Positions 1,111 through 15,228 of a stretch of 64,000 bases of DNA are shown here, one piece after another. The position numbers and the translations under genes were made by a program. The DNA comes from Saprospirales bacterium (GTDB lineage: Bacteria > Bacteroidota > Bacteroidia > Chitinophagales > Saprospiraceae): the NCBI GenBank assembly GCA_007695145.1, contig REEI01000068.1:62001-126000 (forward strand), given 5' to 3'. How positions within the stretch are numbered: position 1 is the first letter of the stretch; every line of letters starts with the position of its first letter. A model generated the notes under the pieces. The model was not told where the DNA came from, did not search any database, and saw nothing but the letters and a program-made list of their open reading frames with translations.

Positions 1111-1335
1111 TAGGGCAGCGCCTAACCTCTTTTATCTGTTTCCGCCATAGTCTCATGAGTTTTTGCTGTTAAATCAACCTTTTTACAGCTATAGAATTGT
1201 GGGCCCGGTGAACCCAAATCCTACCAGGAACTTGCGTTAGATTCTAATGGAACTTAAATTTTTTTGATATGTTTTATTTAACAAGCAGCGCTTTATGGAT
1301 TAAAGTGTTCTATTAATTGATTAAGTCGACCGACC

Positions 1336-1872
1336 TTGACCGATCGTGAACTCATAGAAGGGTGTTTAAAAGGGGATGCTCAATGCGAGCAGTTGTTGTA
1401 TGAGCGTTTCTCGCCCAAAATGTTCGCGCTTTGTCTGAGGTATGGACGAAATAGGGAAGAGGCTGAAGATATATTACAGGACGGCTTTATCAGGGTGTTC
1501 AGAAAGTTGCACACCTTCAAGTTTGAGGGTTCCTTTGAAGGTTGGATTAGGAGAATTATGGTTCATACCGCATTGAAACTGCTGAAAAAAAGTTCCAATA
1601 AGAATGAATTTAGCAATCTGGATGAAGTCAGAGGTGAAAAGGTGGAAAGTCGCGCTGTTACCAATCTTTCTGAACAGGAACTCATGGATTTGATAAACAG
1701 TATGCCCGAGGGCTACAGGACGGTTTTTAATCTGTATGTCATCGAAGGTTATAAACATAATGAGATAGCTGAATTGTTGGACATAGGTGAAAGTACATCG
1801 AGGTCCCAATTGCTAAAAGCAAGAAAATTTTTGCAGTCAGCGCTCAAGCATTTGCAAATGATGCTAATTTAA
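1336..1872 (+). CDS. ECF-type RNA polymerase sigma factor
   Basis: A 178-residue sigma-70 family factor of the extracytoplasmic-function type that should redirect RNA polymerase to a small regulon. Region 2 is clear, with the YGRNREEAEDILQDGFIRVF segment at about residues 36-55. It is followed by the W-I-R-R-I core-binding segment and by region 4 with its helix-turn-helix (YRTVFNLYVIEGYKHNEIAE) near 134-153. The start is TTG at 1336, because an in-frame stop lies at 1318 and no ATG intervenes; TDRELIEGCLKGD then matches the normal N-terminus of this group. The next gene begins 9 bases after the stop, and its product has the layout of a membrane partner, so the two are almost certainly co-transcribed. 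The exact sigma subfamily and regulon cannot be read from sequence. Confidence 0.92.
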   Translation: MTDRELIEGCLKGDAQCEQLLYERFSPKMFALCLRYGRNREEAEDILQDGFIRVFRKLHTFKFEGSFEGWIRRIMVHTALKLLKKSSNKNEFSNLDEVRGEKVESRAVTNLSEQELMDLINSMPEGYRTVFNLYVIEGYKHNEIAELLDIGESTSRSQLLKARKFLQSALKHLQMMLI

Positions 1873-1881
1873 ATTGATTGA

Positions 1882-3390
1882 ATGAACCTGGATCACAAAA
1901 ACATTGACTCATTATTCAGAGGCAAATTAGGAGCGTACGAAGTGGCTCCTCCTCCTGACCTTTGGAGTAGAATCGCAAGCAAACGAAAGTCTGCGACCCT
2001 CAAGAATTACGCCTTGCTCATTCTGCTTTTACTGCTCTTATTGGGAGGATTGGCCTACATGATATACAGTAATTTCCAGGGATCGATTTTTCAGGCAAAA
2101 GTAGAATCTCCTGAATCGCCAATGGGGAACCAGACAGGATTGGTGGCAAGTACAAGTGAAGAGTTACTAAGCTTCAATGAAAAGACTTTTTTTGAGGAAG
2201 GGGATGGCAATATTGATGAAGATTTTGATCTCGTCGCTGACAATTCCAGCCATTCTGAAAAGTCCGAAAAAAGTAGAACAACTACCCGGGATTTTAGTGA
2301 AACGGATGGCAGACTGTTGCAAAATTTTATGCCAGGTGGAAAAGCTGCTCCAAATGCTGACCAGACTTTTTGGACCGATAGAAATCGTTTGGAAGAGAAG
2401 AGGATTTCTGGTGGATTGACGGATTATTCTAGAACTACTGCAATTGATGGCTTTGAACCCGGCAGCAAAGATCCCTTTTCCCTCGAAAATTTGGACGGCA
2501 TGCGAATTGGTGAGAGGGCAGGTGTAGTTTCCCCTTTATTCTCCGGAAGTACAAACTCTATAGAAAGAAAATTTACCTCACTAGGACTTGAAGGAAAGTC
2601 CAATAGGTCCTTATTTTGTTTGTTAAGTCGGGGACCTGAGTGTTTTGAACCCAGGATTCCATTGAGGTATTTCGCTATAGATTTCATGGCGGGGCCGGAC
2701 TTCTTCAGCAAATCTCTCAAACCTTCGAGCAGTGAAGGAGAAGATTTAGCCGAGCTTAGGAGGGAAACTGAAAGTTATGCTTTCTCTTATGGCGCTACGA
2801 TCAGACTCTCGGCTGTCCTTCAAAATGGACTGGCCCTGAGAGCAGGCTTATCTGCAAATCAGATCAATGAAAAATTTACCTATGTTGATCCGGACCATGA
2901 GAGAAGAAGAGTTGTAAATGTTTTGGTTGACACCATCATCAATGCTCCAAATGATACTACCTTTATTTTTGACACATTATCCATTATCGAGTCAGGAGAG
3001 CGAATCAGGACCGTTTTCAACAGATACCAGATGTTAGATGTGCCTTTGATGATTGGATATGAGCATCGCCATGGCAATTGGACTTTTACCGCCTCCGGCG
3101 GGGTCATGTTTAATGTAGCCTTTAAAACGCGAGGTGAAATTATGTCCGCTTCCGGTGACCCGGTAGGCTTTCCCGATCCGGAGACTAATGGCAGTTTCTT
3201 TAGAGCGCGGCTTGGAATGAGTCTGACTGGAAGTTTTGGAGCTGCCTACCGAATCAACAGCAGATATTCTGCTATTGTCGAACCAAGGTTTGTCTATCGT
3301 CTCAAGCCCCTCACACTGGATAACTATCCCGTTGAGCAAAATTATTTTGTATTTGGTATCCAGGCAGGGCTCAGATATAGATTTAGATAA
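1882..3390 (+). CDS. Inner-membrane-anchored protein with C-terminal outer-membrane beta-barrel, sigma-factor partner
   Basis: A 502-residue envelope protein encoded 9 bases after an ECF sigma factor. Residues 1-40 form a charged, presumably cytoplasmic segment (IDSLFRGKL, PPPDLWSRIA). One strongly hydrophobic helix (seven leucines in a row) covers about 43-64. Residues about 65-260 are a low-complexity, Ser/Asp/Glu-rich periplasmic linker. From about 263 the sequence alternates in the manner of outer-membrane beta-strands (YFAIDFMAGPDFF, FSYGATIRLSAVL, FRARLGMSLTGSF, YFVFGIQAGLRYRF), resembling the PorT/OMP_b-brl_2 group. By position and N-terminal form it may act as anti-sigma factor and sensor in one chain, which is inference. 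There is no cleavable signal peptide. A second protein of the same layout follows another sigma factor at 13352-14653. Confidence 0.8.
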   Translation: MNLDHKNIDSLFRGKLGAYEVAPPPDLWSRIASKRKSATLKNYALLILLLLLLLGGLAYMIYSNFQGSIFQAKVESPESPMGNQTGLVASTSEELLSFNEKTFFEEGDGNIDEDFDLVADNSSHSEKSEKSRTTTRDFSETDGRLLQNFMPGGKAAPNADQTFWTDRNRLEEKRISGGLTDYSRTTAIDGFEPGSKDPFSLENLDGMRIGERAGVVSPLFSGSTNSIERKFTSLGLEGKSNRSLFCLLSRGPECFEPRIPLRYFAIDFMAGPDFFSKSLKPSSSEGEDLAELRRETESYAFSYGATIRLSAVLQNGLALRAGLSANQINEKFTYVDPDHERRRVVNVLVDTIINAPNDTTFIFDTLSIIESGERIRTVFNRYQMLDVPLMIGYEHRHGNWTFTASGGVMFNVAFKTRGEIMSASGDPVGFPDPETNGSFFRARLGMSLTGSFGAAYRINSRYSAIVEPRFVYRLKPLTLDNYPVEQNYFVFGIQAGLRYRFR

Positions 3391-3480
3391 ATATATTTTG
3401 TTTCAGGCAACGCATTGCCGGAGAATTAGGGTCTTAAGTTCGATTAATGGAATTTTAAAATAATCCTGTAAAATCAGTTG

Positions 3481-4449
3481 ATGAGAGTATTTAGTTTTAT
3501 AGTATTTGTATGCATTGGAGTTTTTGCTTCAGGGTGTTTTGAGAATGAAGATTATTTTGTTCCGGATGGGCATTTTACCTATGTTGGCGACGTTCAAAAA
3601 CTAAAGTCACAACTAAAGCCTGAGGGTCATGTGATCAACCTTACTGAACTAGAGGGTGACTCTGCGATCTTAATAGATGGAGGGGTTACATTAATGGTCA
3701 ACCCGGAAAACTTTTTGGATGGTGATGGGTCCCCGTACGAGGGAGAGATAGAATTGTATGTTATCCCTACAGAAAAAATAACAGATTGGGTTGGATTTGA
3801 TCAATCATTCATGGGTGAAAACGGTTTAATTGACCTGTTGTTTGCCCTTAATATTAAAATTGATGGAAGAGAGGGGCGCCCTGCTTTCATCAATATTGAG
3901 AATGCTCCGAAAATTAGACTTGAATCCAATCAGACCGATCGACAGCTCAATTATTTTGATCAAATGGATCAATATGGTATTTATGGCCAATGGAGTTTGA
4001 ATGAAGAGAATAAAATTGTCCCTGATGAATGGATGGAAGAAGATGAGACGGGGCAACCGGTTTTGAAAACAGGCTTTGTCTACACGCTTTTATCAAGTGG
4101 CTGGCACGCTATTGGTCAGGAATCCAATCTGGTAGGTGAGGTCTCTGTTTGTTTTGAGCTCCCGCCCGGATTCACCTCAGGAAATACCACAACCTTTCTG
4201 GTGTTGAGAAATATCAATTCGGTTGTTCAATTGAGGGAATGGAAAGACAGGTATACATCGTGCAATACCGAGTTGCTGATTCCTAGAGATGAGGCCATCG
4301 ATGTGGTTTCTATATCCCGATTTTCAGGAGAAAGGTACTTTCTTTCATTCCAGACGGTAATTGCAGATCAAGATCAACTTCTTATCCATCTCAACCCCAA
4401 AAGAGCCAGTTGGAACAGCATTTTGGATAAAGTCAATTCACGCAACTGA
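3481..4449 (+). CDS. Putative lipoprotein of unknown function
   Basis: A 322-residue exported protein. The N-terminus is a lipoprotein signal (MRVFSFIVFVCIGVFASGC) with lipobox ASGC and lipidation at Cys19. A TTG lies directly before the ATG at 3481, but the ATG gives the normal signal peptide. The mature part is mostly beta-structured, with the segment ILIDGGVTLMVNPENF and then DGDGSPYEGEIELYV. That pattern recurs in Bacteroidota lipoproteins that carry a calcium-type DGDG loop. I know no function for it. It lies 90 bases downstream of the beta-barrel sigma partner in the same direction and may belong to that operon as an accessory envelope component. Confidence 0.75.
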   Translation: MRVFSFIVFVCIGVFASGCFENEDYFVPDGHFTYVGDVQKLKSQLKPEGHVINLTELEGDSAILIDGGVTLMVNPENFLDGDGSPYEGEIELYVIPTEKITDWVGFDQSFMGENGLIDLLFALNIKIDGREGRPAFINIENAPKIRLESNQTDRQLNYFDQMDQYGIYGQWSLNEENKIVPDEWMEEDETGQPVLKTGFVYTLLSSGWHAIGQESNLVGEVSVCFELPPGFTSGNTTTFLVLRNINSVVQLREWKDRYTSCNTELLIPRDEAIDVVSISRFSGERYFLSFQTVIADQDQLLIHLNPKRASWNSILDKVNSRN

Positions 4450-13351: not shown

Positions 13352-14653
13352 TCAAAAATGCACCTTCAGGTTCAGTTGGAAATTGCCTTTTTTTGATCTG
13401 TTTCGAAAAACATCAGACTGCCAAAAATGTGTGAGCTGCCGATGGTACTCAATTCCTGCAGAAAAGCGACAATTTAACTCATACGCAAATCCCACGCCAG
13501 CTGTGAAATGAAAAGGCTTGATCAAGCCGTTAAAATAATACTGAGGTGGATAAGTGGATTCTTGGTTCTCCCAGTCTCCTGAGCCGCTAAATTGGGCTCG
13601 TAGATTTTTTGAGGAAGAAGCGTTGGTTCTAAAGGCGTATTCCATACCCAGCCCACCATGGACGCTTAGCTTTGGTAAAAAATAAAATCCTGCATTCAAA
13701 GCCATCCCGGTTTCCCAATAGGCCCCGAGTAATGTTTTTGGGGTTGTCCTGTAAAGAAACTCATTGGTTTGCGAACTTGCTAAACTGCTGTCCCATCCAG
13801 AAAGCTCCATAAAATCATCTAAAGATTTAGACTTGTTGAAAACAAAATAAGTCAAATTTGCTCCATAGGAAATGAACCATCGATTACTCAAGTCATTTGA
13901 GCGCATAATTCCGAGTCCTAAACCATGTAAATTATGTTGGCCATTGTTTTTGTAGTGCAATCCAAGCGCCCATGAGGATTTGCAATTTGAAAAAGGATTA
14001 TTTGCTTTTTCCACTAAGGGGTTGGGTATGATCATTATATTTGACTGGTCAATCTTGATGTCATTCAGCGTCAAAATTGATGGGGGGTGGTTGGATAGTA
14101 AACTATTTATTGCATCGCCAGAGCTAATGGTATTGACTGCCCGGCCGGTCAAGGCATCCATAATGTCAGGCTCAGAAATATCGGATTGGTTTAAAGACCG
14201 AATTCTGTTGCTCTCTTCAAATTTTTCATTTTCAAAATTGAGGGGAGAATATTGAATTACATGATAAGCCTGGTGGGATGTAGGTTCATCAGTAGAATTT
14301 CTTACTTCAGTTTCTTGAAATTGCCCTGCATGCTCAAGGGCCTGGGTAGTAATAAGTCCGCTGTTAATATTTGCTTCTAACCAATCATTTTCAGGAATAA
14401 ATTTAGTCTTGGCTTCTTCACTCCTCGCTGCATGTTCATCAGGAAATTCACCCGCTACTTTGGGGATGATACTAGGATTGTTTTCCCAGGGTCGTGGTTG
14501 AAGAACTATTCCTGCCAGAATCAAAATAATGCACCCGCTTGAAACGGCTACCTTTAACAAAAGGGGAATAGTTGAATCCGATTTTACAGGCATTTCCTTA
14601 TCCAGCATACCCCTCATCTGATCCCATCCTTTATTTTTCAATGATTGTTCCAT
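13352..14653 (-). CDS. Inner-membrane-anchored protein with C-terminal beta-barrel, second sigma-factor partner
   Basis: A 433-residue envelope protein whose ATG overlaps the stop of the upstream ECF sigma gene (TGATG, one shared base), indicating translational coupling. Residues 1-30 are charged and presumably cytoplasmic (WDQMRGMLDKEMP). A single helix covers about 31-51 (LLLKVAVSSGCIILILAGIVL). Residues 52-225 are a variable Ser/Asn/Glu-rich periplasmic linker. From about 228 there are amphipathic strands of an outer-membrane barrel (WALGLHYKNNGQ, RWFISYGANLTYFVF, FHFTAGVGFAYEL), ending in a terminal phenylalanine as barrel proteins usually do (FQLNLKVHF). The layout repeats that of the protein at 1882-3390, but the sequences are not closely alike. 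An anti-sigma/sensor function is inferred from position and topology. Confidence 0.8.
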   Translation of the reverse strand: MEQSLKNKGWDQMRGMLDKEMPVKSDSTIPLLLKVAVSSGCIILILAGIVLQPRPWENNPSIIPKVAGEFPDEHAARSEEAKTKFIPENDWLEANINSGLITTQALEHAGQFQETEVRNSTDEPTSHQAYHVIQYSPLNFENEKFEESNRIRSLNQSDISEPDIMDALTGRAVNTISSGDAINSLLSNHPPSILTLNDIKIDQSNIMIIPNPLVEKANNPFSNCKSSWALGLHYKNNGQHNLHGLGLGIMRSNDLSNRWFISYGANLTYFVFNKSKSLDDFMELSGWDSSLASSQTNEFLYRTTPKTLLGAYWETGMALNAGFYFLPKLSVHGGLGMEYAFRTNASSSKNLRAQFSGSGDWENQESTYPPQYYFNGLIKPFHFTAGVGFAYELNCRFSAGIEYHRQLTHFWQSDVFRNRSKKGNFQLNLKVHF

Positions 14654-15228
14654 CAGATTATTTTTAGTTTTCGGTCCATTTCATCTCTTTGAGCAAGCTT
14701 AGCCTTTAATATTTTTCTGGCCTGATGCAATTGCCATTTTGAACTACCTTCGGGAATATCGAGTAATTCAGCTATGTCCGAATGCGAAAAACCCTCAATG
14801 GCAAAAAGGGTAAACACATCCCTGGTAATATCCGGTAATTGACGGACCATGTCGATCAAATCCTTGTAATAAAGGTCACTCAGTGCCTGAGGGTTGAGAA
14901 TGAGTCGCTGGTTTACATGCTCAACGACCTCTGAGGACTTTTTTCCATTGCTTCTAGACCGATAGTAATCTGCTATGGCATTGAAAAGCAATCTTCTCAG
15001 CCATGCTCCCAGACTGCCATAGGCATGGTAGAGGTCTATTTTTTTGAAGGCTCGAAGAAAGGCATTATTGACAACCATCATGGCCTCTTCCGGGTCGTGT
15101 ATCCGACTTTTTGCTATGCCGTACATCATATCAAAATGCCTTTTGTAGAAGACTTCTTGCAGGTCGCGCTTGTTTTTCCTGCAGCCCTCCAGCAATTCCT
15201 CTTCTGATATAGTGGAGTTATCTTTCAT
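14653..15228 (-). CDS. ECF-type RNA polymerase sigma factor
   Basis: A 191-residue sigma-70 family factor. Region 2 (FDMMYGIAKSRIHDPEEAMMVVNNAFLRAFKKI, about residues 31-63) diverges from the usual D-x-x-Q core but keeps the N-A-F-L-R-A-F end. The LGAWLRRLLFNAIADYYR segment follows. Region 4 carries the helix-turn-helix ITRDVFTLFAIEGFSHSDIAELLDI near 135-159, then the S-S-K-W-Q-L-H-Q-A-R-K-I-L tail. The gene for a membrane/beta-barrel protein overlaps its stop codon. Eighty bases upstream in the same direction ends an outer-membrane protein gene, so the sigma gene could be read from its own promoter or from the upstream pair. Confidence 0.92.
   Translation of the reverse strand: MKDNSTISEEELLEGCRKNKRDLQEVFYKRHFDMMYGIAKSRIHDPEEAMMVVNNAFLRAFKKIDLYHAYGSLGAWLRRLLFNAIADYYRSRSNGKKSSEVVEHVNQRLILNPQALSDLYYKDLIDMVRQLPDITRDVFTLFAIEGFSHSDIAELLDIPEGSSKWQLHQARKILKAKLAQRDEMDRKLKII

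Follow-up and report, generated by a model that had tools for sequence, protein, structure and literature searches.

Can one polypeptide connect the outer membrane to an ECF sigma factor in the cytoplasm? The question is raised by a locus near the start of the window, by which we mean the whole 64,000-nucleotide stretch of contig REEI01000068.1 from a Saprospirales bacterium that was analyzed. In it, an ECF sigma factor gene is followed by a gene for a 502-residue protein with features of both membranes. The FecI-FecR-TonB receptor system similarly places an ECF sigma factor under control from the outer membrane, but divides the task among three separate proteins, whereas the window encodes one chain. 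We considered a TonB/FecR-type system and rejected it, as a Pfam search of the 502-residue protein (E up to 1) turned up neither FecR nor a plug or TonB receptor. Instead, the module is of the same kind as the Dma and Reo systems of other Bacteroidota; what is new is the lineage that carries it, its third gene and its presumed promoter.

Layout of the locus and predicted anatomy of the 502-residue protein

The open reading frame listing and Pfam agree with the coordinates and layout given by the first-pass annotation of this DNA, with 9 bases separating the two genes (Table 1). The sigma ORF scores above the NCBIfam cut-off for TIGR02937, and the other nearest NCBIfam models (among the best 25 of 97) all fall below their own cut-offs. 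A third gene, encoding a lipoprotein, begins 87 bases (TTG start) or 90 bases (ATG start) beyond the end of the 502-residue ORF.

Table 1. Features of the sigma factor locus, in window coordinates
Feature	Position	Strand	Details
Promoter-like site, presumed ECF promoter	1284..1311	+	AGCAGCG-N18-TCT; relaxed match; 52 bases before sigma start
ECF sigma factor gene	1336..1872	+	178 aa, TTG start; Pfam Sigma70_r2 1.8e-15 and Sigma70_r4_2 5e-15, both above cut-offs
Dual membrane-spanning protein, Dma/Reo-type, presumed anti-sigma factor	1882..3390	+	502 aa ORF
Residues 1-42, cytoplasmic, presumed sigma-binding segment	1882..2007	+	motif D..F+.KL......P..lW..I
Residues 43-65, inner-membrane helix	2008..2076	+	hydropathy 2.6; part of AlphaFold2 helix 27-65
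Residues 66-258, disordered periplasmic linker	2077..2655	+	AlphaFold2 low confidence
Residues 259-502 and stop, predicted outer-membrane barrel	2656..3390	+	8 strands, ends GLRYRFR; AlphaFold2, structure comparison
Promoter-like site before third gene	3406..3434	+	GGCAACG-N19-TCT; strict match
Third gene, lipoprotein	3481..4449	+	322 aa; alternative TTG at 3478; lipobox ending in Cys19

The first-pass annotation had described a charged N-terminus, a single hydrophobic helix, a low-complexity linker and a beta-barrel-like C-terminus. The N-terminus and helix hold up: residues 1-42 contain eight K/R and four D/E, and residues 43-65 are strongly hydrophobic. AlphaFold2, run on an alignment of 50 sequences, produced a model with an overall mean pLDDT of 72.4 and a pTM of 0.53, in which helices span residues 5-16 and 27-65 and pLDDT is under 50 for most of 68-253. 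Eight long strands lie within residues 261-501, with 10-residue block means of 82-98, so that structure prediction bears out the suspected barrel. The description of the linker as low in complexity needs correction, since its mean entropy in 30-residue windows (3.55 bits) is close to that of the barrel (3.62 bits); the linker is predicted to be disordered instead. Its length varies from 128 to 231 residues, with a middle value of 170, among 50 aligned sequences.

Comparison with solved structures using VIA-align placed a de novo eight-stranded barrel in the top row for the predicted barrel (Z 18.9, 116 aligned, rmsd 1.5). OmpA (Z 16.4-17.2) and the N-terminal barrel of OprF (Z 17.2, rmsd 2.4 over 131 aligned residues) gave similar scores. 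These models predict that the C-terminal part is an eight-stranded OmpA-type barrel. No Pfam family matches the window protein (E up to 1), and a profile search of PDB sequences with the barrel-protein alignment returned chance-level matches only (best 0.034). Among 37 aligned members, 20 match OMP_b-brl_2 and 14 match OMP_b-brl (E up to 0.1). Structure prediction, along with the conservation described below, supports the proposal of the first-pass annotation that a single chain could cross both membranes, with a helix in the inner and a barrel in the outer one. We also observed two cysteines, Cys246 and Cys254, directly preceding the barrel. They may form a disulphide or serve in redox chemistry, and Cys254 hardly varies in either the 37- or the 50-sequence alignment.

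At the other end of the protein, all 37 sequences of one alignment carry L16 and W28, and W28 is likewise invariant in an alignment of 50. A profile of the first 42 residues matches all four short barrel-less proteins that we fetched (L221-L224; 244-331 residues as called), with E values from 6.6e-12 to 8.6e-8 (three at 1.4e-8 to 6.6e-12, one at 8.6e-8). Each is encoded beside an ECF sigma gene. These anti-sigma-like proteins share the N-terminal motif, the helix and the neighboring sigma gene with the window protein but have no match to the barrel profile; having been picked from class-wide matches for their short frames, they are a demonstration and provide no rate. What is common to the barrel and barrel-less proteins beside sigma genes is the N-terminal segment and the helix, a comparison that favors the N-terminus as the part facing the sigma factor. 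We infer that residues 1-42 bind the sigma factor. In one relative, the N-terminal motif occurs twice in tandem ahead of the helix (L078, 4644-3094, minus strand), and a protein elsewhere in the source genome (L056) has a similarly doubled-looking N-terminus, with profile scores that are only weak.

Conservation, promoter-like sites and the third gene

At E up to 0.001, matches to the 502-residue protein are present in all eight genomes of the genus, the source included, and in 128 of 150 sampled family genomes. An alignment profile finds matches in 295 of 395 sampled class genomes, many of them only partial. The first contig scan, made with a single-protein query, found no relative. Identity to seven genus mates is 42% in the N-terminus, 18% in the linker and 64% in the barrel.

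We collected 107 loci, including that of the window, which represent 93 distinct proteins. The first 48 were chosen as the best-scoring matches from the genus and family searches and consequently favor close relatives; they overlap many of the later 58, and all loci counts refer to sequences and do not stand for independent events. The alignments draw on 36 of the 48 loci (A1), 49 of the 58 loci (A4) and 41 third-gene proteins (A5). This search for the architecture in other genomes, a check proposed by the first-pass annotation, revealed a sigma gene upstream on the same strand for all 89 distinct proteins with at least 500 bases upstream (window included). The two genes overlap by 4 bases for 59 of the 93. 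Three of the 93 show no sigma gene, their contigs stopping 5, 98 and 113 bases upstream. The finding is real and well conserved: it exceeds chance because the N-terminus and barrel are conserved while the linker diverges, because the sigma gene is adjacent wherever enough upstream sequence is present, and because the 4-base overlap recurs.

Several observations concern additional copies of this arrangement. The window contains a second pair with the same layout (13352-15228, minus strand), consisting of an ECF sigma gene (14653-15228) and a partner that overlaps it by one base; the 433-residue product of this partner begins with a hydrophobic stretch near its N-terminus and has an OMP_b-brl match below threshold (E 0.0016). 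On other contigs of the source genome (C99, C77 and C135), ECF sigma genes are followed by genes for proteins of 506, 526 and 559 residues with a Dma-like layout (L056, L058 and L060, respectively). The barrel is supported in L056 by a Pfam match above cut-off and in L060 by a barrel-profile match (4.6e-20); support in L058 is weak. The source genome thereby holds up to five sigma and Dma-like pairs, two of them in the window, among 13 ECF matches. One contig titled as a Streptomyces griseus MAG also encodes the Bacteroidota module (L126); its title or bin is probably wrong.

The regions upstream of the sigma genes contain a recurrent promoter-like motif. Of 90 distinct regions, 46 contain the hexamer GGCAGC (2.0 expected) and 21 contain GTATCT (3.9 expected). 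We combined these as RGCARCR-N17-19-TCT, with a strict version in which the first base is G. This motif precedes the sigma gene at 49 of 90 distinct loci in the relaxed form and at 41 of 90 in the strict form; 100 dinucleotide shuffles of the same set average 0.22 and 0.09, respectively. As the sigma-upstream regions were used to define the motif, the stretch that separates the barrel gene from the third gene provides a separate test, although the site in the window's own third-gene region had been spotted by eye ahead of it. There, the motif is present at 51 of 59 distinct loci relaxed and 44 of 59 strict (strict shuffles, 0.06). In a control of 584 chunks from barrel gene bodies, it occurs twice relaxed and never strict. 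It is missing from 41 of the 90 sigma regions and 8 of the 59 third-gene regions.

A variant of the motif chosen to match both sites in the window has only 25 occurrences across the 3.7 Mb source genome, two of these being the sites themselves, compared with 20 occurrences of the reversed pattern. A second pattern, which does not fit either window site, is found 7 times against 6 for its reverse. As neither count exceeds its reversed control appreciably, no wider regulon is visible. One good-looking site (G000:C75:18544) has no sigma, Dma-like or lipoprotein match within 3592 bases. The motif is presumably the sigma factor's own promoter, and the operon may be autoregulated.

A third gene lies within 1500 bases downstream at no fewer than 58 of 87 distinct loci that have at least 1300 bases there, a lower bound because the first 48 loci were searched with a single protein only. 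The lipobox cysteine of the encoded protein is invariant in alignments of 31 and of 42 members. The consensus KDxD that follows it resembles the surface-export signal of Bacteroidota, of which the window copy is a less typical example. With Pfam (E up to 0.1), no family matches more than one of 31 third-gene proteins. A search of PDB sequences with the third-gene profile gave chance-level matches only (best 0.64).

The lipoprotein model is confident (mean pLDDT 90.3), and Foldseek returned no match for it at E up to 0.001. In VIA-align, the best row is the ZU5 domain of ankyrin-B (Z 8.2, rmsd 3.4 over 125 aligned residues). Domains of the ZU5 and GAIN types and their kin account for 11 of the best 50 rows, covering lipoprotein residues of approximately 46-216 with Z scores of 5.7-8.2, near the level that the tool calls middling. 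Some rows whose titles name no domain presumably hold ZU5, GAIN or FIIND domains. Residues of approximately 218-310 resemble common beta-sandwiches. These comparisons weakly suggest that the lipoprotein is ZU5/GAIN-like. At three loci (L060, 3211-1403, minus strand; L164; L167), a lipoprotein of approximately 600 residues is encoded near the Dma-like gene and replaces the usual one of 320 residues; these longer proteins match the third-gene profile weakly.

Relation to the Dma and Reo systems

The first-pass annotation knew of no characterized example of such a protein. Examples exist: Dma1 and Dma2 of B. thetaiotaomicron (PMC13088901) and Reo of P. vulgatus (PMC9308784, PMC13114119) are proteins of this type, with mutant phenotypes reported to require the cognate sigma factor. 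The window protein therefore belongs to a known kind. Dma proteins, encoded beside ECF21 sigma genes, bind sigma through their N-terminus and continue with a helix, a disordered tether and a barrel (PMC13088901); the window protein resembles them in its presumed sigma-binding N-terminus, single helix, disordered tether, C-terminal barrel and adjoining ECF sigma gene. Loss of Dma2 in B. thetaiotaomicron increases vesiculation in a Das2-dependent manner, and deletion of dma2 raises expression of das2 and neighboring genes (PMC13088901). The dma2 gene, as described there, is likewise part of a three-gene operon. The third gene of that operon, BT_1557, is annotated as DUF4943, whereas neither the window's third gene nor its 30 aligned relatives have such a match (31 proteins; Pfam, E up to 0.1).

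The EcfO-Reo pair of Phocaeicola vulgatus and Bacteroides fragilis offers a second parallel, in which a sigma factor gene lies beside that for an anti-sigma factor predicted to cross the periplasm and end in an outer-membrane barrel (PMC9308784). Reo of P. vulgatus is described as spanning five compartments and as a likely outer-membrane stress sensor (PMC13114119), and its loss switches on the regulon of its sigma factor (PMC9308784). The pair is among the genes most induced by bacteroidetocin A, which targets BamA (PMC13114119, PMC9308784). The two systems are also alike in surface lipoproteins, which in EcfO-Reo belong to the regulon. Those of EcfO-Reo include NigD proteins (PMC13114119), and the P. 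vulgatus nigD gene M0N98_03762 is numbered next to ecfO, M0N98_03761 (PMC13114119, PMC9308784), but the third gene of the window belongs to another family. We considered NigD as its identity and rejected it: none of 31 members has a NigD match (E up to 0.1), and a search of the source genome for NigD_N (E up to 1e-5) came back empty.

Genomes that do carry NigD_N, 12 of the 395 sampled from the class and presumably Bacteroidales, provide a link to the characterized proteins. The alignment profile matches 17 places in 10 of these 12 genomes, and at all 14 loci that we fetched, a sigma gene lies directly upstream, a helix is found near residues 45-75 and the barrel profile matches. The best barrel stretches range from 3.3e-7 to 0.027, and the N-terminal profile matches 12 of the 14; several of the barrel and N-terminal matches are weak. 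Each of the three proteins from this group that we submitted to Pfam exceeds an OMP_b-brl cut-off. A NigD gene is located within approximately 2.3 kb of a match in five genomes. The window's promoter-like motif is absent upstream of the sigma gene at the 14 loci. Through these weak-to-moderate matches, sequence comparison supports homology between the window protein and characterized Dma and Reo proteins. Within the open-licence literature, we found no paper on anti-sigma factors in Saprospiraceae or Chitinophagaceae.

Proposed mechanism and its alternatives

We consider it probable that the 502-residue protein is an outer-membrane-stress sensor that holds its sigma factor, with autoregulation and a dedicated lipoprotein output. 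Residues 1-40 would retain the ECF sigma factor on the cytoplasmic side, and the membrane helix, disordered tether and predicted eight-stranded barrel would bring the chain to the outer membrane. By analogy with the characterized relatives, a disturbance of the outer membrane or of the barrel would release the sigma factor. Once freed, it would probably transcribe its own operon and the lipoprotein gene from the two conserved promoter-like sites (Table 1), and the lipoprotein, which we infer to be the module's dedicated envelope output, would then act at the cell envelope.

Other readings of the same chain differ in where it is cut, in the sign of its effect and in whether it regulates at all. 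ECF sigma factors are usually released by regulated proteolysis, and the linker, being long, disordered and poorly conserved, looks like an open protease substrate. Normal maturation might accordingly cut the chain in the linker or membrane, leaving an inner-membrane fragment as the working anti-sigma factor and the barrel as a separate outer-membrane protein. We judge this unlikely, given that barrel, tether and anti-sigma segment stay fused in 93 distinct proteins and that we saw no conserved cleavage motif in the linker when inspecting the alignment by eye. Sequence also leaves the sign of the effect undecided, and certain FecR-type regulators are required for sigma activity, so the N-terminus could activate or stabilize the sigma factor without inhibiting it. 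This is very unlikely in view of the reported consequences of losing Dma2 (PMC13088901) or Reo (PMC9308784), each of which raises sigma-dependent expression.

The protein could also have nothing to do with the sigma factor beyond a common operon and be a conventional outer-membrane protein, its N-terminal extension serving as an unusual export signal. OmpA-type barrels are common, and the hydrophobic stretch could function as a signal peptide. What precedes the helix, though, is a conserved 42-residue segment with an invariant Trp, a segment that recurs in barrel-less proteins beside sigma genes, and the constant adjacency of the sigma gene (89 of 89) is a further argument against an ordinary protein; we regard the idea as very unlikely.

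The sensor that we favor may be elaborated into a closed loop in which outer-membrane assembly is probed in cis, a scheme that we put forward as conceivable but doubtful. The anti-sigma factor would itself be a barrel in need of assembly, and as long as the barrel is folded, the tether would keep the sigma factor held. Failure of assembly would lead to cutting of the unfolded barrel and the tether and to freeing of the sigma factor, which would then make more of the sensor as well as the single dedicated ZU5/GAIN-like envelope lipoprotein, the latter repairing or capping the defect. Such a loop fits the reported induction of EcfO-Reo by the BamA-targeting bacteroidetocin A (PMC13114119, PMC9308784). 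If true, it would represent the logic of proteobacterial sigma-E with sensor and signal in one polypeptide.

The N-terminal motif of approximately 40 residues is a candidate for a widespread anti-sigma segment in Bacteroidota. More broadly, sensors of the Dma/Reo kind, which the reports cited here study in gut Bacteroidales, are widespread in a branch of the phylum that is free-living. There the module has a clean output to test, made up of a conserved lipoprotein gene and a pair of conserved promoter-like sites, and it lacks the large regulons and the phenotypes seen with the Bacteroides systems.
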